In this document: positions 1,393-38,274 of the stretch, piece after piece | Position numbering within the stretch: position 1 is the first letter of the stretch | Layout: every line of letters begins with the position of its first letter | Assembly (NCBI RefSeq): GCF_000744415.1 | Contig: NZ_JQLW01000007.1 | Span: 62,001-126,000 of the forward strand | Reading direction: 5' to 3' | DNA: 64,000 nucleotides | Origin: Ghiorsea bivora | GTDB lineage: Bacteria > Pseudomonadota > Zetaproteobacteria > Mariprofundales > Mariprofundaceae | Translations under genes and position numbers: made by a program | The notes under the pieces: model-generated | Databases searched by the model: none | What the model saw: only the letters and a program-made list of their open reading frames with translations | What the model was told of the DNA's origin: nothing

Positions 1393-1779
1393 TTACGCTC
1401 CACAGGGTATGCAGCCGAAGGTGTACACCAGCTCAGCCCAGATGTGATAGGTCATATACGCAGCAAAGCCAAGCAGGCTGATGAATAAAATATTCAGCAC
1501 TACGATGCGTTGACCTGTGGTATGTATATAATCTTCGATGATAACTTTGAGACCTGTCCAGATATGGGTAAGCAACGCAAATAAAAATAGGGTGCTTATG
1601 CTTTTGCTGATAGGGAGAGTTAGCCAAGTATAGAGTTGCGAGAAAGCAATGTTTCCATTGTAAGTGAGCAGTAATAAAAGCATTAATGCGGGGATAGATA
1701 AAAGCAATACTACCGCACTGATGCGCTGCCAATACCAATCATGGAAGCCAGTTTGCGCTGCACCCAAATCTTTGTTCAT
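1393..1779 (-). CDS. sdhD: Succinate dehydrogenase membrane anchor subunit D
   Basis: Second membrane anchor of complex II, 128 residues with three hydrophobic helices; with SdhC it binds haem b and the quinone. The [13 protein letters not shown] segment matches the family region holding the haem-ligand histidine (HAWIGMWQVLTDY in E. coli). An in-frame start exists 42 bases upstream, but the ATG at 1779 overlaps the sdhC stop as ATGA and gives the normal N-terminus, so it is preferred. Order C-D-A is the usual sdh operon order. Confidence 0.88.
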
Positions 1780-2209: not shown

Positions 2210-2794
2210 TCAAGATTGTGTTAAACCTTTTAGGTCGGGTAAATTATTGGCGAATTCTTCAAAACTTTTATTTTTGGTGAGTGATTGAACAACAATATCT
2301 AGCGGTTTTGCAAAGCGTTGAGAGAAGTCGATTTCACCAGAATAAACTGTATCAAAAGCCAATTGTTCTTGATGTGGTATAAACTGCGTATCAACATCTT
2401 TTTTGTTTCCGCGCGCATCAATACGATACCAATCAAAATCAGGTAAAAACACAGCATTAAAACCATGTAAAGAGAATGGCGGTTTTCCTACTTCAATGGT
2501 TAATCTTTGGTAACAAAGTGCTGTAGGAATATGATTTGCGCGAAGCAGGGCTGCCAGTAAGAGGCTTTTGGCAAAGCAGTAGCCTGTTTCATGCTGTAAA
2601 ATATCTGAGGCTTTACAGGTGACAGGGTTTAATTGGTCGTCCCAACTATGTTTTATATTATTACGTACAAATTCAAAGCAGGTTTTGGTTATATCTTGAT
2701 GGTTAGATAAATCTTGGGCAAGTTCTTTTGCTTTATTTAATATATTAGGTGTTTGCCAATCAATATATTCACTTGCTTCTAAATATGCTTTCAT
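2210..2794 (-). CDS. Transglutaminase-like cysteine protease-fold protein
   Basis: A 194-residue cytoplasmic protein with the transglutaminase-like core. The probable catalytic triad can be read directly: Cys73 in GYCFAKS, His110 in SLHGFNAVF and Asp126 in YRIDARG. No signal peptide or membrane segment is visible. Bacterial members of this family are mostly uncharacterised and may act as peptidases or amidases; the substrate here is unknown. It overlaps the upstream alpha/beta hydrolase gene by four bases (ATGA), so the two are probably translated together. Confidence 0.75.
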   Translation of the reverse strand: MKAYLEASEYIDWQTPNILNKAKELAQDLSNHQDITKTCFEFVRNNIKHSWDDQLNPVTCKASDILQHETGYCFAKSLLLAALLRANHIPTALCYQRLTIEVGKPPFSLHGFNAVFLPDFDWYRIDARGNKKDVDTQFIPHQEQLAFDTVYSGEIDFSQRFAKPLDIVVQSLTKNKSFEEFANNLPDLKGLTQS

Positions 2795-10975: not shown

Positions 10976-12577
10976 ATGAAACCATCTTGCCCCAAAGTTT
11001 GGATTGCCGATAAAATGAGCGAACGTGCCATTTCGGTTTTTCAATCTCATGGCATTGAAGTGGATTATAAACCTGGGCTGTCGGTGGGTGAACAAATCAA
11101 AATTGCAGGCAACTATGATGGTATTGCCGTGCGCTCTTCAACCACACTTAAAGGTGACTTACTGGCTGCGGCAAACAATGTAAAAGTTATTGGTCGGGCG
11201 GGCATTGGTGTGGATAATATTGATGTGCAAACTTGCTCACGTCGTGGTGTGGTGGTGATGAACACGCCCTTTGGTAATACGATTACGACTGCAGAATTGG
11301 CAGTAGCACATATTGTAGCTGCGGCGCGTCAAATCCCGCAAGCGACAGCCTCAACACGGGCTGGACAATGGGAAAAGTCTAAGTTTATGGGCATGGAGCT
11401 TACGGGCAAAAAAGCGGGTGTGATTGGTGCAGGAAACATTGGCGCGATTGTATGCGACCGCCTCAAAGGTTTGCACATGTCCGTTTATGTTTATGACCCT
11501 TTTATTTCTGATGATAGAGCAGCAGCGATGGGTGTGACCAAAGTAGCAACGGTGGCAGAGCTTGCATCTTTGGTTGATGTGTTAACCATTCATGTGCCGT
11601 TGATTGATGCAACACGCCATTTGATTAATGCGGATATTTTGAAAAAGATGAAAAAGGGTTCGATTTTGGTCAACTGTGCGCGTGGCGGCATTGTGGATGA
11701 GAAGGCTTTGTATAAAGTTTGTAAATCCAAGTATTTGCGTGCTGCGGCTTTGGATGTGTATGAAAATGAACCTGCCAAAGAAAATCGTTTGTTTGAATTG
11801 GATAATGTTACATTTACGCCTCATATCGGGGCATGTAGTGATGAGGCGCAGGAGAATGTAGCTGTGCAAGTGGCTGAACAAATGTCGGACTATTTGCTTA
11901 CAGGCAGTATTACTCATGCGGTGAATGTACCATCGTTGTCCGAAGAAGAAGCCAAGGCTTTGGCACCATTTATGGGGCTTGCGGCTTCATTGGGTCAGTT
12001 TATGGGGCAGGTGATGCGCCCAGGTTATGATAAAATTGTGATTCGTTTTGAAGGTAAAGTGAGTAAACTGAATCGCCCACCCATTTTGAACACGATTTTA
12101 CAAGGTTTGATGTCGCATAGTATGGATGAAGTGAATGCGGTGAATGTGCAAATGTTGGTCAAAGAGCGTGGCATTGAACTTGAAGAGGTGGCGAGCGAAA
12201 CATCCGACCACTTTTCCAGCTTAATGCGCTTGGAAGTGTATGGCGATGAGGGTTACCGTTGTGTATCAGGCACGGTGTTTGATGGCACCAATCCACGTTT
12301 GGTGAGCATTGATAAATGTGAGTTAGAGATGACACCGCAAGGCAGATTGTTGTTTATCGAAAACAAAGACAAACCTGGTGTGATTGCAGATATTGGCGCT
12401 ACATTGGCTGCGGCAAACATTAATATTGGCGACTTCCGTCTGGGTCGCCGTGAAGATATGGACGGGGCATTGGCATTGGTATCCATTGATTCTGAACCTG
12501 CACCCGAAGTGATTGAAAAATTAGAGCGTTTAGAAAACATAACCACAGTGCGTTATGTTGCCTTGGAGGCATTGTGA
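10976..12577 (+). CDS. serA: D-3-phosphoglycerate dehydrogenase, long form with ACT domain
   Basis: First committed step of serine synthesis. The 533-residue form has the D-hydroxyacid dehydrogenase core (catalytic Arg in ARGGIVDE, Glu in YENEP, His in TPHIGACS; NAD loop GAGNIG), an intervening domain, and a C-terminal ACT domain beginning FIENKDKPGVIADIG that usually binds serine for feedback inhibition. The ATG at 10976, eight bases after ACGGAGT, is chosen over 10955. Its stop overlaps the GTG start of hisZ. A 143-base gap from serC contains only a weak 6-bp hairpin. Confidence 0.95.
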   Translation: MKPSCPKVWIADKMSERAISVFQSHGIEVDYKPGLSVGEQIKIAGNYDGIAVRSSTTLKGDLLAAANNVKVIGRAGIGVDNIDVQTCSRRGVVVMNTPFGNTITTAELAVAHIVAAARQIPQATASTRAGQWEKSKFMGMELTGKKAGVIGAGNIGAIVCDRLKGLHMSVYVYDPFISDDRAAAMGVTKVATVAELASLVDVLTIHVPLIDATRHLINADILKKMKKGSILVNCARGGIVDEKALYKVCKSKYLRAAALDVYENEPAKENRLFELDNVTFTPHIGACSDEAQENVAVQVAEQMSDYLLTGSITHAVNVPSLSEEEAKALAPFMGLAASLGQFMGQVMRPGYDKIVIRFEGKVSKLNRPPILNTILQGLMSHSMDEVNAVNVQMLVKERGIELEEVASETSDHFSSLMRLEVYGDEGYRCVSGTVFDGTNPRLVSIDKCELEMTPQGRLLFIENKDKPGVIADIGATLAAANINIGDFRLGRREDMDGALALVSIDSEPAPEVIEKLERLENITTVRYVALEAL

Positions 12578-30663: not shown

Positions 30664-30694
30664 TCATCACATCACATCACATGGTTACTTTAGA

Positions 30695-30726
30695 GTGATA
30701 AATTTGTGATATTTATGCCTTACACT
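30695..30726 (+). promoter_or_regulatory. Two 11-bp-spaced GTGATA repeats before a -10 (msrAB)
   Basis: GTGATA occurs at 30695-30700 and 30706-30711, exactly 11 bases apart. TACACT at 30721-30726, nine bases further, is a fair -10; no good -35 is present. The layout is like that of promoters activated by OmpR/PhoB-type regulators. The same repeat is upstream of the spondin gene at 33037. Confidence 0.5.
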
Positions 30727-30757
30727 GGTCACATCTTAAAAAAGAAGGTGAACTGTG

Positions 30758-31837
30758 ATGAATAAAGTCCGAAACTATACAATTGTTTTGATAAGTATTG
30801 CGCTTCTATTGCTCACCCTACCTACATTCATAACTGCCAAAGATGATATGGCAAAAGGTAGTATGATGGGAACAATGTCCAATACAGAAAAAGCGATTTT
30901 TGCTGGTGGTTGCTTTTGGTGTATGGAAAAACCATTTGAGCAGCTTGATGGTGTAAAATCTGTGGTTTCTGGTTACAGCACGGGCAATATCAAAAATCCA
31001 ACCTACCAAAATTATATGTCAGGTGGGCATTTGGAAGTGGTTGAAATTACTTATAACCCTGCACAAACAAGTTATGAAAAACTTTTGGATGTGTTTTGGC
31101 ATCAAATTGATCCTACCGATGCTGGTGGTCAGTTTGTGGATAGGGGATATGCATACACAACGGGCATTTTTTATTTGAATGAAAAACAACACAGCCTTGC
31201 TGAAGCTTCTAAAGCCAAGATAGAAGCAAGTGGGGTGTTTTCTAAACCGATTGTGACACCCATTAAACCAGCACAAACCTTTTATATGGCAGAAACATAT
31301 CATCAAGACTATTATAAAAAGAATCCCTTACGTTATTGGTATTACCGTAAAGGTTCAGGTCGTGACCAATATTTGGATAAAATTTGGGGAAAAGACCGAG
31401 GAGAGCATAAAAAAATGGCTGACTTAAAAGATAAACTTACACCGTTACAGTATGAAGTAACCCAAGAAGAGGGCACAGAACCACCATTTAACAATGCCTA
31501 TTGGGATAATAAAGAAGCGGGCATTTATGTGGATATTGTATCGGGTGAGCCGTTGTTTAGCTCCAAAGACAAATTCAAATCAGGCACTGGCTGGCCTAGC
31601 TTTGACCGCCCATTGGTGAAAGAGAATATCATTGAGAAGGTTGATCGCCGCTTATTTAGCACCCGCACCGAAGTGCGCAGCAAACAGGGTAATTCGCACC
31701 TTGGGCATGTGTTCAACGATGGTCCAAGCGAAACCACAGGCCTGCGCTACTGCATCAATTCCGCAGCCTTGCGCTTTGTTCCTGTGAGTGAACTTGAAAA
31801 AGAAGGTTATGGTCAGTTCTTAACTTCGTTTAAATAA
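30758..31837 (+). CDS. msrAB: Exported bifunctional methionine sulfoxide reductase MsrA-MsrB
   Basis: Repairs both S- and R-methionine sulfoxide in envelope proteins. The 359 residues have a signal or anchor (about 7-27), an MsrA domain with GGCFWCME (Cys52) and an MsrB domain with [11 protein letters not shown] (Cys332). The MsrB zinc cysteines are replaced ([13 protein letters not shown]), as in many fused forms. The ATG at 30758 has GAAGGTG at seven bases, so it is preferred over GTG at 30755. The thioredoxin-like delivery domain of Neisseria MsrAB is missing; another periplasmic reductant must serve. Confidence 0.93.
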
Positions 31838-31896: not shown

Positions 31897-32736
31897 TTAT
31901 ACTCCATACGTTAAGACAGTCGTTACGCTAGCACCAAAAACGACAAAGGACATAGTCACCATAAACACAATCATGCTGCGTGATACGTTGTCCACATGCT
32001 TCTCATTTTTATGCTCGTCTCTTGTTTCAGTATGACTTGAATGGCTAGGTGTTGAATGTTCTTGCATATTTACATCATCACTATGATTTAGTCGCACCGT
32101 CATCATACCGTGCTTCATATGATTGGAAACTAACCACCAGTTTATCGGATAAGCTGCAATAAATCCTATCAATAATGCCATCGACATGATGAACCAGAAC
32201 TCCATTGATATTAGGCTACTACTTTCAGGTACCATACGCATGCCAAATGATGTAACGAGTACCATAGCTGCCATGAGATAATTCATTGAAACCAGTTCAG
32301 GTATAAATGTATTTTTTAGAGCCTTATAAAACGAACCACCTGACGACTCTTTCATAAACAAAGCCTGAAATATTGTCCATCCGAAGCCAAATCCCAGAAG
32401 GTATTCAAGACCAATTTCTGCTGGTTTAGATAAATGAATTATACTGCCAAGTATAGCGCCAGCTAATATTCCTAAGCCATCGCCAGCTACGCAGTGCATA
32501 GTTGAACCTAATACTTGGCGCCAAAGTGTTGCCGTGTATTTTTCGTGTAATCCAGGTAGTGGTTCGCGACATCCTAGTATGTATAAAAACGCTCCGATTG
32601 GCCCAGTATAGGCTGTGAGTAATATAAACCCCCATTTTAATACTGGCGACTCTGGAGTTTTAATGCTATCGATTGCAACAAATAGTACTGAAGCAGCCGT
32701 AAGAATAAACCATAGTAGCATTACACCTGATAACAT
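31897..32736 (-). CDS. DUF4396 polytopic membrane protein with His-rich loop
   Basis: A 279-residue membrane protein with about seven helices. GAFLYILGCREPLPGLHE and GSTMHCVAGDGLGILAGA, followed by SMNYLMAAMVLVTSFGMRM and AAYPINWWLVSNHMKHGMM, match DUF4396, a family of unknown function. A loop near residues 215-248 is rich in His, Asp and Glu (HSDD, HSTPSHSSH, DEHKNEKH) and could bind metal. It is divergent from the spondin pair and convergent with msrAB. Confidence 0.8.
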   Translation of the reverse strand: MLSGVMLLWFILTAASVLFVAIDSIKTPESPVLKWGFILLTAYTGPIGAFLYILGCREPLPGLHEKYTATLWRQVLGSTMHCVAGDGLGILAGAILGSIIHLSKPAEIGLEYLLGFGFGWTIFQALFMKESSGGSFYKALKNTFIPELVSMNYLMAAMVLVTSFGMRMVPESSSLISMEFWFIMSMALLIGFIAAYPINWWLVSNHMKHGMMTVRLNHSDDVNMQEHSTPSHSSHTETRDEHKNEKHVDNVSRSMIVFMVTMSFVVFGASVTTVLTYGV

Positions 32737-32891: not shown

Positions 32892-33036
32892 CACTATTGC
32901 TTCTTTTTCCATGTAATGCTCGGCAATAGGTATTACCTGTTGTGAAAGCTCCCTTTAAACATGGTGATATAGTTGTTACGATAATTACTTAGTCATATCG
33001 ATCCTAACTATGCAAACTATTAGACTTAGTTATCAC

Positions 33037-33075
33037 GTGATACAAATGTGATAAGTTGGTGATAACCGTGTGACT
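33037..33075 (+). promoter_or_regulatory. Four helically phased GTGATA-type repeats before the spondin gene
   Basis: GTGATA begins at 33037, 33048 and 33059 and GTGACT at 33070, all exactly 11 bases apart, on one face of the helix. The weak -10-like TTAATA at 33086-33091 begins 11 bases after the last repeat unit, similar to the msrAB site. The first repeat is half of a perfect palindrome. Binding by an OmpR-family regulator, perhaps that at 34680, is inference. Confidence 0.6.
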
Positions 33076-33135
33076 TCTCCATGCGTTAATAGCTGCGTTC
33101 CCAAAGAGGGGCAATAAAAATAAGGAGAAGGAATC

Positions 33136-33840
33136 ATGAAAAAACATATTACACTTGCAGGCATGGCACTTGGTTTGTTGATTAGCCAAAGTGCTTTTGC
33201 ACAAAACTTTACTGTTGCCGTGACCAATTTGACGAATGGTATCTATTTCACACCGTTGCTTGTCACCGCAGCACCATCAACCACACACCTTTATACACCG
33301 GGTATGGCTGCATCAGCCAATCTTCAAGCGATGGCTGAAGGTGGCGATACAGCGGGGTTAACAACAGACCTTATGGCAGTTGGCGCTGATATTGCAGCAG
33401 CCAATGCTACGCCAATGGCACCGGGTGCAACTGCAACGGCAACATTCACCAACACAGCCGCAGCCAACACACACTTATCGGTGGTGGGTATGCTTTTACC
33501 TACCAATGATGGCTTTGTTGGCTTGGATAGTATCATGGTGCCCACAGCCGCAGGCACATACACGTTCTTTGCCAATGCTTATGATGCTGGTACTGAAGCC
33601 AATAATGAACTTATTGTTGCGGGTAGTGGTGCGCCGAACACTTTGGGTATTCCTGCTGACCCGGGTGCTGCTAATGGCACGGGTGGTACAGGCGTTGCCG
33701 CAGTGGATGCCAATACAACCGTACATATTCACCGTGGCATCATTGGTGATACAAATCCAACGGCTGGCATCAGTGATTTGGATACAACAGTTCACCGCTG
33801 GTTAAACCCTGTGGCACAAATTGTTGTCACTGTGCAGTAA
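33136..33840 (+). CDS. Exported spondin-domain protein
   Basis: A 234-residue exported protein (signal peptide to about SAFA, residue 22) that fits the bacterial spondin_N family: FTVAVTNLTNGIYFTPLLVTA, the ASANLQAMAEGGDTAGL segment, VGMLLPTNDGFVGLDS and the HIHRGI turn near the C-terminus. The composition is Ala/Thr-rich with no cysteine in the mature part. Bacterial functions are unknown. RBS AAGGAGAAGG is strong, so high expression is likely. The second spondin gene follows after five bases. Confidence 0.82.
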   Translation: MKKHITLAGMALGLLISQSAFAQNFTVAVTNLTNGIYFTPLLVTAAPSTTHLYTPGMAASANLQAMAEGGDTAGLTTDLMAVGADIAAANATPMAPGATATATFTNTAAANTHLSVVGMLLPTNDGFVGLDSIMVPTAAGTYTFFANAYDAGTEANNELIVAGSGAPNTLGIPADPGAANGTGGTGVAAVDANTTVHIHRGIIGDTNPTAGISDLDTTVHRWLNPVAQIVVTVQ

Positions 33841-33845
33841 GGGAG

Positions 33846-34568
33846 ATGATGATGAATACTTATAAAAGTATCAATATTTTAGCCATCACCTTAGGTCTTG
33901 CGCTTTATGGTTGTAGCAGCTCTAGCACAACAACGCCAAGCAGTGGTGGTACAACTACACCAACCCCTGCATCGTATGAAATCACTTTAACCAATCTCAC
34001 GGGGGCACAAGCGATTGCACCCGTTGCCGTTGTTCTGCATACCTCAGGTTACAATATGGGTATGTTGGGAACTTCAGCAAGCCTAGCATTGGAAAAATTG
34101 GCTGAAGGTGGTGACAATGTCATGTTGCTAAGTGAAGCCAATGCCCACGCTTCTGTATTAACATCAGTGGGTGGGGCAGGTGCGATTATGCCTGCTGCAT
34201 CGGAAACATTGATGGCAAATGTGACTGATTCGGCAGGTTTGCAATTAAGCGTGGCAGGTATGCTGGTGAACACCAATGATGGTTTTGCAGCCCTACAAGG
34301 TTTGGATATTTCAACCTTGGCTGTGGGTGAATCAACATCTGCATTTTTAGCCGTGTTTGATGCAGGCACAGAAGCCAACACTGAAACAGCAGCAACCATG
34401 CCAGGCACAGGCGGGACGGGTTTTGATGCAGTGCGTGATGACACGGGCTTTATCAGCATTCATCGCGGTGTTGTGACTGTGGATGATGGTTTAGCCACAT
34501 CAGGCTTGATGGACAAACATCGGTTTGATAATCCAGCACTAAAAGTTGTTATCCGTAGAGTAAGTTAA
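33846..34568 (+). CDS. Spondin-domain lipoprotein
   Basis: A 240-residue paralogue of the preceding protein, but membrane-anchored: lipobox LALYGC at about residue 23, a Ser/Thr/Gly/Pro linker (SSSSTTTPSSGGTTTP), then the spondin_N pattern (YEITLTNLTGAQAIAPVAVV, LEKLAEGGDN, VAGMLVNTNDGFAALQGLD, ISIHRGVVT). One member soluble and one tethered suggests division of labour in the periplasm. Three ATGs (33846, 33849, 33852) are possible; GGGAG supports the later ones. A strong hairpin follows. Confidence 0.82.
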   Translation: MMMNTYKSINILAITLGLALYGCSSSSTTTPSSGGTTTPTPASYEITLTNLTGAQAIAPVAVVLHTSGYNMGMLGTSASLALEKLAEGGDNVMLLSEANAHASVLTSVGGAGAIMPAASETLMANVTDSAGLQLSVAGMLVNTNDGFAALQGLDISTLAVGESTSAFLAVFDAGTEANTETAATMPGTGGTGFDAVRDDTGFISIHRGVVTVDDGLATSGLMDKHRFDNPALKVVIRRVS

Positions 34569-34679: not shown

Positions 34680-35390
34680 ATGAACAAACAGATTCTCATC
34701 GTGGAAGACAACGCAGACCTTGCAAGCTTAATTGCCTTGCATGTGCAAGATATGGGTTGTACATCAGATATTGCAGGCGATGGCGGCAAAGCCTTGCGTC
34801 TTTATGAACAAAATGATTACGACCTTGTGCTTTTGGACATCATGTTGCCTGTGATGGATGGTATTGAGGTGTGCAAAAAGATGCGTGAGGGCGGTAAATA
34901 CATTCCCATTATGATGCTTACATCCAAAACATCTGAAATTGACCGCGTGGTGGGTTTAGAAGTCGGCGCTGATGATTATATCAGCAAACCATTCAGTATT
35001 CCTGAGCTGCTGGCGCGCATTAAAGCGCAGTTTCGTAGCGTGGATGCCTTGATTAAATCTCAAGAGAATGTGAAGCAAAATAACACCATGCAAGTGGGGG
35101 ATATGTCCATCGATTTGGCTAAACGGCAAGTCTTCATTGCAGACAAAGAAATTCAATTAACCGCCAAAGAGTTTGATTTATTGGTGTATTTTGCCAAACA
35201 CCCCGGGCAAGTGTTTACCCGTAGCCAACTGCTTGACCATGTGTGGGGTTATCAGTTTGAAGGCTATGACCATACCGTCAACACCCATATCAATCGCCTT
35301 CGTATGAAAGTGGAGCAAGATGCAGCCAATCCTGAATATATTCTTACGGTTTGGGGCGTGGGCTATAAATTTGGCGACAGTAAACGGTGA
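34680..35390 (+). CDS. OmpR-family response regulator
   Basis: A 236-residue regulator with a receiver domain (acidic pocket near Asp10, phosphorylation Asp53 in LVLLDIMLPVMDG, Thr/Ser in MMLTSKTSE) and an OmpR/PhoB winged-helix domain (about 140-232; LTAKEFDLLVYFAKHPGQVFTRSQLLDHVWGY). The kinase gene starts eight bases after its stop. Regulators of this type bind direct repeats with 10-11-base spacing, as found upstream of msrAB and the first spondin gene; that link is not proven. Confidence 0.92.
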   Translation: MNKQILIVEDNADLASLIALHVQDMGCTSDIAGDGGKALRLYEQNDYDLVLLDIMLPVMDGIEVCKKMREGGKYIPIMMLTSKTSEIDRVVGLEVGADDYISKPFSIPELLARIKAQFRSVDALIKSQENVKQNNTMQVGDMSIDLAKRQVFIADKEIQLTAKEFDLLVYFAKHPGQVFTRSQLLDHVWGYQFEGYDHTVNTHINRLRMKVEQDAANPEYILTVWGVGYKFGDSKR

Positions 35391-35397
35391 ATTGACC

Positions 35398-36876
35398 ATG
35401 ATACATACACTTTATGCACGCCTTGCGCTTACGCTGACACTGGCTTTGGGGCTGGTTGGTCTGATTTATGGTGTATTTATGTTTACCACCGTGCAGAAAA
35501 ATACCCAATATGCCGAACAATTGTTAAATCGTAACCTTGCAAAAACATTGGTGAATGAACGCAATCTTGTGCATGAAAACACATTGGATAAACAAGCACT
35601 CAAGGATATGTTTATGGCATATATGACGGTGAATCCAAGCATTGAAATTTATTTATTGGATTTGCAGGGTAAGGTTTTGTCCTATTCCGCAGACCCCGGG
35701 CAAGTAAAACGCGACCATGTTTCACTTCAACCTATTCGTGCATTTTTACAAAAGAATGCAAGTTTCCCCTTGCTCGGTGACGACCCTCGTTCATTGGATA
35801 GGCAAAAAGTTTTTTCAGTGACACCCATCCCCATGACGGATAATCCCAGTGGTTATTTATATGTGATTTTGAGAGGTGAGCAATATGATGCTGTAGAACA
35901 GTTGGCTAGGGATAAAGAATTATTATATTTGGGTGCTTGGGTGGTGAGCATTGCCTTGTTTGTCAGCCTTGTAGTTGGTTTATTGGTGTTTTATCCGATT
36001 ACACGTCGTTTACGTAAGCTTTCCCAACAGGTGGATGCATTTCGTCAATCTGAATTTAGAACATTGCCTGATTTTCAAGCATCAGAAGGCAAGGATGAAT
36101 TAAGTCAACTTGAGCGTAATGTGGCAGAAATGGCAAAACAAACCGTGCAACAGTTTGAACAGATATCCAAACAGGATGTCAAACGCCGTGACTTATTCGC
36201 CAGTCTTTCTCATGACTTACGCACACCACTTGCAGCATTACATGGCTATTTGGAAACCCTTGAAATGAAAGCAGACAGTTTGGATGAACAACAACGCCAT
36301 GCATATACTGAGCGGGCGATTAAGTTTAGTGATAGGCTGAAGCATTTAATTGATGAGCTGTTTGAAATGGCAAAATTGGACACCTTAGATTCAGCACCAC
36401 AAATTGAACCCTTTGCTTTGCCTGAATTGGTGCAAGATATGTTGCAGCAATATGAAGCTGGCGCACAACATAGGGGTGTATCTTTGGTGATGAAAGGCGA
36501 TACACATATGCCCTTGGTGCAAGCGGATATTGCCTTGATTCAAAGGGTGTTTGAGAATTTATTGGGTAATGCTTTGCGTTATGTTAAAAAGGGTGATGTG
36601 ATTACTGTATCATTGGAAAAGCATGATATGTATGTGAAGGTTGAGCTTGCTGATACAGGATGTGGCATACAGGAAGATATTTTACCGCATATTTTTGACC
36701 CTTTGTACCAAGGCAACAATACCCATCGTGGTGATGAGCATTCTGGGCTTGGCTTGGCGATTGTGAAGCGTATTTTGGAGCTTCATCAAAGCCATATCCA
36801 AGTGCAAAGTACATTAAACCATGGTACACGTTTCACATTTAGACTTTTTTATACAGGAGAGCACAACCATGCTTAA
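35398..36876 (+). CDS. Membrane sensor histidine kinase
   Basis: A 492-residue kinase. TM1 (about 8-31) and TM2 (about 178-200) flank a periplasmic sensor of about 145 residues with a PAS/Cache-like look; then HAMP (200-255), HisKA with His272 in SLSHDLRTPLAALHGY, and HATPase with N (RVFENLLGNALRY), G1 (DTGCGIQED) and G2 (HSGLGLAIVKRI) boxes. The ATG at 35398 gives a normal TM1; earlier in-frame starts lie inside the regulator gene. The ligand is unknown. It overlaps the FecR-like gene by eight bases. Confidence 0.9.
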   Translation: MIHTLYARLALTLTLALGLVGLIYGVFMFTTVQKNTQYAEQLLNRNLAKTLVNERNLVHENTLDKQALKDMFMAYMTVNPSIEIYLLDLQGKVLSYSADPGQVKRDHVSLQPIRAFLQKNASFPLLGDDPRSLDRQKVFSVTPIPMTDNPSGYLYVILRGEQYDAVEQLARDKELLYLGAWVVSIALFVSLVVGLLVFYPITRRLRKLSQQVDAFRQSEFRTLPDFQASEGKDELSQLERNVAEMAKQTVQQFEQISKQDVKRRDLFASLSHDLRTPLAALHGYLETLEMKADSLDEQQRHAYTERAIKFSDRLKHLIDELFEMAKLDTLDSAPQIEPFALPELVQDMLQQYEAGAQHRGVSLVMKGDTHMPLVQADIALIQRVFENLLGNALRYVKKGDVITVSLEKHDMYVKVELADTGCGIQEDILPHIFDPLYQGNNTHRGDEHSGLGLAIVKRILELHQSHIQVQSTLNHGTRFTFRLFYTGEHNHA

Positions 36877-37495
36877 AACGATACTTTTCACATTATGTTT
36901 GTCGTATGCATCAACAGCCCTTGCTGCTGATGGTAAGATTTACCTTCTTAAAGGCCCTGTGCTGATTAATGGTCATTTAGCATCCAAAGATACACCGATT
37001 CACTTTAGTGATGAGGTGCTTACGGGTGATAAAGCGCGGATTATCATGAAACTCGATGGCAGTGTGTATCGTATGGGTGGGCGTTCGCGTTTGGCATTGC
37101 CTGAACAAACGGAAAACTTTACTTTAAATGTATTTTTCGGCTCTGTTTTGGCTGTGTTTAAACGGAACACAGCCAAAACCATCCATACAAAAACTGCAGT
37201 GTTGGGTGTGCGCGGTACGGGTGTATTTTTAAATGTGGATCACGACCAAACATATTTGTGCACATGTTATGGTGATATAGATTTTTCAGATGTGAACGAT
37301 ATAGATAATGTGGCGCATATTCATGCTGAATACCATCAAGTGGTTGCCTTGAATCATCACACCCACAGCTTTTCCACACCCGCCATGGTTGGACATGTAA
37401 GCCAAGACCTATTTGAGCTTGAAGCACTCGCCGAACGCACGCCACCATCCACCTTTACCGTTGACGCTCATGCCAACAATAAAGTGGAATTTTAA
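36869..37495 (+). CDS. Exported FecR-domain protein
   Basis: A 208-residue protein with a signal peptide (to about LAA, residue 19) and a FecR domain: GPVLINGHLASKDTPIHFSDEVLTGDKARIIMKLDGSVYRM, FGSVLAVF and KTAVLGVRGTGVFLNV. The kinase-like anti-sigma helices of FecR are absent, so it is more like a stand-alone sensory or structural domain. ACAGGAGAG precedes the ATG at 36869, inside the end of the kinase gene, so it is coupled to the two-component system and may tune its signal. CLCTCYGDIDF carries two cysteines that may be redox-active. Confidence 0.75.
   Translation: MLKTILFTLCLSYASTALAADGKIYLLKGPVLINGHLASKDTPIHFSDEVLTGDKARIIMKLDGSVYRMGGRSRLALPEQTENFTLNVFFGSVLAVFKRNTAKTIHTKTAVLGVRGTGVFLNVDHDQTYLCTCYGDIDFSDVNDIDNVAHIHAEYHQVVALNHHTHSFSTPAMVGHVSQDLFELEALAERTPPSTFTVDAHANNKVEF
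37145..37179 (+). repeat. Perfect 14-bp hairpin inside the FecR-domain gene
   Basis: GTTTTGGCTGTGTT (37145-37158) and AACACAGCCAAAAC (37166-37179) are exact reverse complements around a seven-base loop. The segment encodes VLAVFKRNTAKT. It lacks a trailing T-tract. Confidence 0.7.
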
Positions 37496-37670: not shown

Positions 37671-38105
37671 TTATTTTACCGTAATATGAATCGTGCGACT
37701 CATCACTTGACCATATGATTGGTGATGACCATCGGCAAACTGAAGTGTTAAGGTATGTTTGCCGGGTTTGAGTTTGATGGTGGTTTCCGTTTGCCCTTTG
37801 CCAAAATGGATATGTTTATCATCAGCAGGCACCACTTCATTTTCAGGAATATAAGCGCCATCAATGATTAAGTGATGATGTCCTGTGCCTTCAATGATTT
37901 CCCCCGCTTTGTGTACTCTCATGCCCTTGATGCCCATTTTCACAAGCAAAGGACTAGAGACGGTATCACCATCTTTGGGGCTGATAAATTGTGGACCTAA
38001 TGTGTATGACTGACTACATACGCCTTCATGCTGACATGCGGCTTGCGCCATGCTGCTGATGAAGAGTGTGCTTGTTAGTGCGAGAAGTGTGAACCAATAT
38101 TTCAT
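37671..38105 (-). CDS. Exported DUF4399 protein
   Basis: A 144-residue exported protein (signal to about AQAA, residue 22). FISPKDGDTVSSPLLVKMGIKGM, EGTGHHHLIIDG and KLKPGKHTLTLQFADGHHQSYG are the marks of DUF4399, a beta-sandwich family of unknown function that often carries conserved histidines. The ATG at 38105 follows AAAGGAGATT and is chosen over 38165. Four histidines in HHH and HH clusters could bind a metal; this is inference. It is convergent with the FecR-domain gene across the MITE-like element. Confidence 0.82.
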   Translation of the reverse strand: MKYWFTLLALTSTLFISSMAQAACQHEGVCSQSYTLGPQFISPKDGDTVSSPLLVKMGIKGMRVHKAGEIIEGTGHHHLIIDGAYIPENEVVPADDKHIHFGKGQTETTIKLKPGKHTLTLQFADGHHQSYGQVMSRTIHITVK

Positions 38106-38274
38106 ATGAATCTCCTTTTTTGTTGCTGCTGGTAAAGTATGCTGAAACCATGAAAAGATAAACACAAACTTCGTATGCTTATTCTTTTGTTGATGTACCT
38201 AGTAAAGGGTGAGTTTGGGTGTTAAGTTTCGCAGATATAGATACAGTTTAAATGATGAAACAAGGGGCAACACC

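Follow-up and report, generated by a model that had tools for sequence, protein, structure and literature searches.

The prototype of tandem DNA recognition by OmpR/PhoB-family response regulators is PhoB of Escherichia coli at its PHO box (PMC4415409). Here, we analyzed a stretch of 64,000 nucleotides from the zetaproteobacterium Ghiorsea bivora (assembly GCF_000744415.1, contig NZ_JQLW01000007.1, positions 62,001 to 126,000, forward strand; "the window") and, within it, a tandem array of GTGATA repeats upstream of two spondin-domain genes, spon1 and spon2. The array shares with the PHO box its direct 11-nt units, head-to-tail effector domains, and a sigma70 contact replacing the −35 element, these contacts being predicted here. 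However, the PHO box unit is CTGTCAT rather than GTGATA, the promoters described here carry four units each, and their regulon is not related to phosphate. Judging from sequence, the array is very probably an activator site for the response regulator encoded at 34680, serving a proposed methionine-oxidation regulon with spon1-spon2 and the methionine sulfoxide reductase (Msr) gene msrAB.

Several described systems share parts of this arrangement. In E. coli, the OmpR-family two-component system HprSR (YedVW) controls a periplasmic methionine sulfoxide reductase within HprSR-hiuH-msrPQ and is induced by hypochlorous acid (HOCl; PMC9302797). Our locus has the same pairing of system and periplasmic reductase, but MsrP/MsrQ is a molybdoenzyme and not MsrAB, the box CATTACAAAATTGTAATG is palindromic, and HprSR involves neither a spondin nor a methionine-rich peptide. 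The HprR/CusR regulon was considered as an identity for our array and rejected, as CATTACAAAATTGTAATG is unlike the array motif and the 34680 regulator, at 158.5 with the HprR model (cut-off 353), does not qualify as an HprR. OrhK/OrhR of uropathogenic E. coli, in the available excerpt of its description, directly activates an MsrPQ-like system and a periplasmic protein under hydrogen peroxide (H2O2); it likewise links a two-component system to a reductase and a periplasmic protein, but the reductase is of another family and the excerpt contains no tandem-array motif (PMC8550376). In Fusobacterium nucleatum, according to the portion available of its report, a fused MsrAB is genetically linked to and controlled by the two-component system ModRS under H2O2, as our fused MsrAB is linked to one; its partners are Trx and CcdA instead of a spondin and a methionine-rich peptide, and that portion gives no binding motif (PMC9239216). 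Two-component systems can run Msr regulons, since HprSR, OrhKR, and ModRS do so. Methionine-rich MXKDX/MrpX peptides act as an oxidant sink and are co-regulated with methionine sulfoxide reductase in SigF-YedYZ-MrpX of Azospira and BcrS-BcrXQP of Brucella (PMC8315932). There too, peptide and reductase are under one regulator, but control is by extracytoplasmic function (ECF) sigma and anti-sigma factors, not a response regulator, and no spondin is involved. Finally, Pseudoalteromonas luteoviolacea has the same four genes in the same order, spondin-spondin-regulator-kinase, beside an L-amino-acid oxidase (PMC6316408). The accessible part of that report gives gene order alone, with no regulatory motif or function; our own analysis finds arrays before its spon1 too.

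Read directly, the array consists of GTGATA at 33037-33042, 33048-33053, and 33059-33064 and GTGACT at 33070-33075, all on the plus strand with a period of exactly 11, as an initial annotation of this DNA had stated. That annotation had also placed a −10-like TTAATA at 33086, 11 positions beyond where the last unit ends (with 10 bases separating them), with no clear −35. No −35-like hexamer is seen upstream of spon1, where units 3 and 4 fill that position, and a −10 is indeed present. However, comparison with other genomes places it one base earlier, as GTTAAT, beginning nine bases after unit 4. The promoter features are these:

33037–33075, plus strand: GTGATA-N5-GTGATA-N5-GTGATA-N5-GTGACT, a tandem array of four units with period 11 that two response-regulator dimers are predicted to bind
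33085–33090, plus strand: −10 hexamer GTTAAT, +48 from unit 1, a phase kept in the spondin-locus logo and in the spon1, mrp, and msrAB promoters of Zetaproteobacteria
33031–33036, minus strand: TATCAC, left half of a palindrome and putative unit 1 of a decayed divergent array, its further units degenerate (GTCTAA, TGCATA)

Nowhere else in the window do three identical 6-mers follow one another at spacing 10-12, and no such triple arose in 60 first-order Markov shuffles of the window. By chance, ~3e-6 exact 3xGTGATA arrays with period 11 would be expected. Across the whole 2.15 Mb genome, a scan for exact GTGATA-N5-GTGATA, which had been suggested with the initial annotation, returned four pairs: two make up the spon1 array, one lies at 30695 before msrAB, and one, probably a chance match, lies in a peptidyl-prolyl isomerase coding sequence (C8). 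Near-matches at 12026 and 41294 were rejected as weak and without further units.

The array is widely conserved. We examined 80 spondin loci from other named genomes, mostly Gammaproteobacteria with some Nitrospirota and many from Pseudoalteromonas, comparing the best 3-unit array in the 350 bases before spon1 with random windows of the same locus (p values uncorrected for relatedness). An array precedes the first spondin gene at p<0.05 in 71/80 loci and at p<0.01 in 68/80, and in most of the 80 the gene row is spon1, spon2, regulator, and kinase. The initial annotation had named absence of the repeats from orthologous promoters as the finding that would count against it; instead, arrays in the same register occur in relatives as well as in these 68 distant loci. 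Alignment of 52 non-redundant promoters on units 1-3 gave a logo with four units at 0/11/22/33 and a −10, TATA[AC]T, at +48 to +53, neither unit 4 nor the −10 having been used in choosing the sites. When 23 Zetaproteobacterial arrays were scored with the logo −10, +48 was the best of 26 offsets, with a mean of 1.7 bits in the spon1, mrp, and msrAB promoters versus −0.7 for the next-best offset. The Gammaproteobacterial loci L112 and L113 (handles for genomes, contigs, and loci are our own) have a divergent msr gene behind a separate array, where TATAGT can be seen by eye at +48. In L127, L164, and other Pseudoalteromonas loci, the spondin genes' own array separates them from upstream L-amino-acid oxidase and decarboxylase genes.

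The genes downstream of the array are as follows:

33136–33840, plus strand: spon1, secreted spondin-domain protein (Pfam Spond_N 7e-8; NF038123 1.6e-50)
33846–34568, plus strand: spon2, second spondin-domain protein, lipoprotein-like N-terminus (NF038123 4.7e-45)
34680–35390, plus strand: OmpR/PhoB-family response regulator, predicted array binder (D53, K103, and recognition helix HTVNTHINRLR conserved)
35398–36876, plus strand: cognate membrane histidine kinase (HisKA and HATPase_c)
36866–37495, plus strand: FecR-domain protein, the operon end in several relatives (domain search and relatives' gene order)

Both spondin genes belong to the bacterial spondin-domain family, with NF038123 scores of 172 (spon1) and 154 bits (spon2) against a cut-off of 40; the Pfam Spond_N scores are 33.2 and 23.6 against a cut-off of 24. 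The 34680 regulator has receiver (PF00072, 2.4e-28) and winged-helix effector (Trans_reg_C, PF00486, 1e-30) domains. It reaches none of the equivalog cut-offs of the 25 best NCBIfam models listed, and at 213.8 bits against 296.2 for TIGR02154 it does not qualify as PhoB. Across 65 orthologues averaging 52% identity to the window regulator, the recognition helix HTVNxHINRLR is 0.86-1.00 conserved at all but one position, a near-invariance that fits a DNA target having stayed unchanged. Orthologues with 54-89% identity occur in 19/78 genomes of the class, the window's included, whereas among the eight class genomes whose 3-unit array has no more than one mismatch, every one has an orthologue (hypergeometric ~3e-6, relatedness ignored). 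Four direct repeats of 11 bp, a −10 at fixed distance with no −35, the regulator's domains and proximity, its co-occurrence with the array, and its near-invariant helix together support the activator-site layout of OmpR/PhoB-family proteins that the initial annotation had proposed.

A second array makes msrAB a probable member of a wider regulon, which that annotation had missed:

30684–30711, plus strand: msrAB array, GTTACT at 30684 (unit 2), GTGATA at 30695 (unit 3), and GTGATA at 30706 (unit 4); E 6e-4, second-best site in the genome
30721–30726, plus strand: msrAB −10 hexamer TACACT, at the +48 phase
30755–31837, plus strand: msrAB, an MsrA-MsrB fusion with a signal-peptide-like N-terminus, start GTG 30755 or ATG 30758

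The protein is a bifunctional MsrA/MsrB, combining PF01625 (PMSR, 1.3e-57) and PF01641 (SelR, 2.6e-48) in one polypeptide. Among relatives within the class, arrays precede spon1 in G004, G007, G012, and G017; the regulator-kinase pair in the spondin-less G005, G018, and G008; and msrAB in G005, G014, G017, G018, G019, and G025. Relatives also have an array before an often divergent gene for a small secreted methionine-rich protein, with a signal-peptide-like start and about 17-30% Met. From its sequence, this protein resembles MXKDX/MrpX peptides; against the curated model TIGR02953, it mostly falls short (one match at 25.9 against a cut-off of 41, and four others without a match). The array marks at least four promoter types in the proposed methionine-oxidation regulon. 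R1, a 44-nt sequence profile built from these sites, finds only spon1 (1.1e-8; 35.7 bits, the site belonging to the training set) and msrAB below E 0.1 in the window's genome. Beyond the genomes used for training, it detects arrays that precede msrAB, the regulator-kinase pair, and the methionine-rich gene in G079 and G084, and msrAB in G086.

The initial annotation had also described the first unit as half of a palindrome. The palindrome, TATCACGTGATA, is present at 33031-33042, but comparison with relatives suggests a different reading of it. In G005, G007, G008, G012, and G018, two intact arrays abut exactly head-to-head, as TATCAC/GTGATA or a GTTATA variant, and one side feeds the methionine-rich peptide gene. 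In the window, the first left-hand unit alone is kept, the other left units are degenerate, and no methionine-rich gene stands at that place. Therefore, the palindrome appears to be the relic of a divergent promoter and not an independent element. Separately, the place of the relatives' divergent gene is occupied in the window by a DUF4396 membrane protein (31897-32736). A distance of 300 bp separates the start of its gene from the array, and it has no array convincingly directed toward it.

We propose that two phosphorylated dimers of the 34680 regulator, each over two 11-bp units, would bind head-to-tail on one face of the DNA, given the four direct 11-bp units. They would sit in the −35 place and bring sigma70 polymerase to the −10 hexamer at 33085-33090, as the fixed phase to the −10 and the missing −35 suggest by analogy with PHO boxes. 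Activation of spon1-spon2 together with the downstream regulator and kinase genes would give positive autoregulation. The same regulator would act on the msrAB array and, in relatives, on the divergent gene for the secreted MXKDX/MrpX-like peptide. Because the targets are msrAB and a methionine-rich peptide gene, the regulon may respond when HOCl, peroxide, or similar oxidants attack periplasmic or envelope methionine. MsrAB would then repair methionine sulfoxide, the peptide would serve as a sacrificial sink, and the spondin proteins could have a protective role or be targets themselves.

Spondin_N proteins occur in at least 564 confirmed bacterial genome stretches. In the open-licence literature, we found no paper assigning a function to bacterial spondin proteins, and none joining a spondin, Zetaproteobacteria, or the GTGATA repeat with a 34680-type regulator. 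On balance, we favor the view that the 4x11-bp GTGATA array with its phased −10 marks a previously undescribed, widespread two-component regulon uniting spondins, Msr, and a methionine-rich sink peptide, and placing spondins in extracytoplasmic oxidant defense. The array would give spondins a testable role through their link to methionine sulfoxide repair and a sacrificial peptide. In addition to ECF sigma factors and HprR-like systems, a further kind of regulator would then be connected to the methionine-rich peptide/Msr pair. The motif is precise enough for finding regulon members from sequence.

Several points weigh against this interpretation. The regulator-kinase promoters of the spondin-less genomes G005, G018, and G008 have no −10 at +48, and their architecture may differ. 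A protein search found no methionine-rich gene in the window's genome, though this kind of search responds poorly to such sequences, and its control missed known copies in G012, G017, and G025. The window sites are within the R1 training set, and two R1 hits below 1e-3 (G009:C70 and G007:C89) have no explained target. The signal is proposed from gene content and published parallels. As to the first of these hits (L199/L220, 184-219, plus strand, E 2.4e-4), the gene behind it encodes what we take to be a DUF3047-like secreted protein, and the regulator was not found in this 56%-complete assembly.

Among other explanations, the most serious is that the array is a true regulator site whose regulon answers another stress, such as metal or envelope stress, with msrAB one of several unrelated targets. 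We regard this as possible but rather unlikely. Bacterial spondin domains are without known function, the E. coli msrPQ operon is also copper-induced via CusSR (PMC9302797), and the P. luteoviolacea operon, in the part of the report available, adjoins an L-amino-acid oxidase operon (PMC6316408). Yet both other recurrent targets, msrAB and the MXKDX/MrpX-like peptide, point to methionine oxidation. L-amino-acid oxidase itself, moreover, produces H2O2, which argues the same way. It is improbable that the cognate regulator acts mainly as a repressor on an autoregulatory operator, with transcription by a sigma factor reading only the −10. Such a role would suit a −35 region taken up by units 3-4 and the regulator promoters that lack the +48 −10, but a repressor has no need of a fixed phase, and a phase between array and −10 that stays the same across several promoter types and phyla, with no −35, is typical of activators that touch sigma.

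A CRP/FNR-type or other global regulator is a very poor candidate for the array. GTGA is also a CRP half-site, TGTGA occurs within the units, and TATCACGTGATA is palindromic; however, the units are direct rather than inverted, inspection shows no CRP spacing TGTGA-N6-TCACA, and the palindrome is accounted for as the point where two head-to-head arrays meet. The genome has just two good sites, unlike what a global regulator would have, and array presence tracks the 34680 orthologue. Finally, the window contains twice as many copies of GTGATA as its shuffles do (40 versus 18.6 on one strand), as might be expected of a chance low-complexity run, but this explanation has a negligible probability given the expected number and the shuffles above, and cross-phylum conservation already refutes it. 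Activation by the 34680 regulator remains our preferred reading.

Within the kinase, Met76 is the only extracytoplasmic-domain Met invariant in ten aligned orthologues (G007 was left out, as its reading contains a stop), and this conservation makes it a possible candidate redox sensor residue. The in-frame stop in G007 (L053, 3217-4686, minus strand) falls within the kinase alignment range and may reflect a shorter kinase or an error. The FecR-domain protein is a probable passenger of the operon. Several relatives, too, have a DUF4399 protein (window 37671-38165) conserved in the interval from the operon to recA.

The array also records decay of the regulon, as a palindrome where a divergent promoter stood and as promoters outliving lost operons. 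G013 and G002 lack the regulator but each have a strong array, and in both the array belongs to a wreck of the spondin locus:

L195 (G013:C37), ~1501–1542, minus strand: operon wreck, the spon1 promoter and start kept between dinB and recA with the rest deleted
L196/L218 (G002:C60), ~2464–2502, minus strand: operon wreck, the promoter kept with about 15 codons that are fused to a truncated kinase
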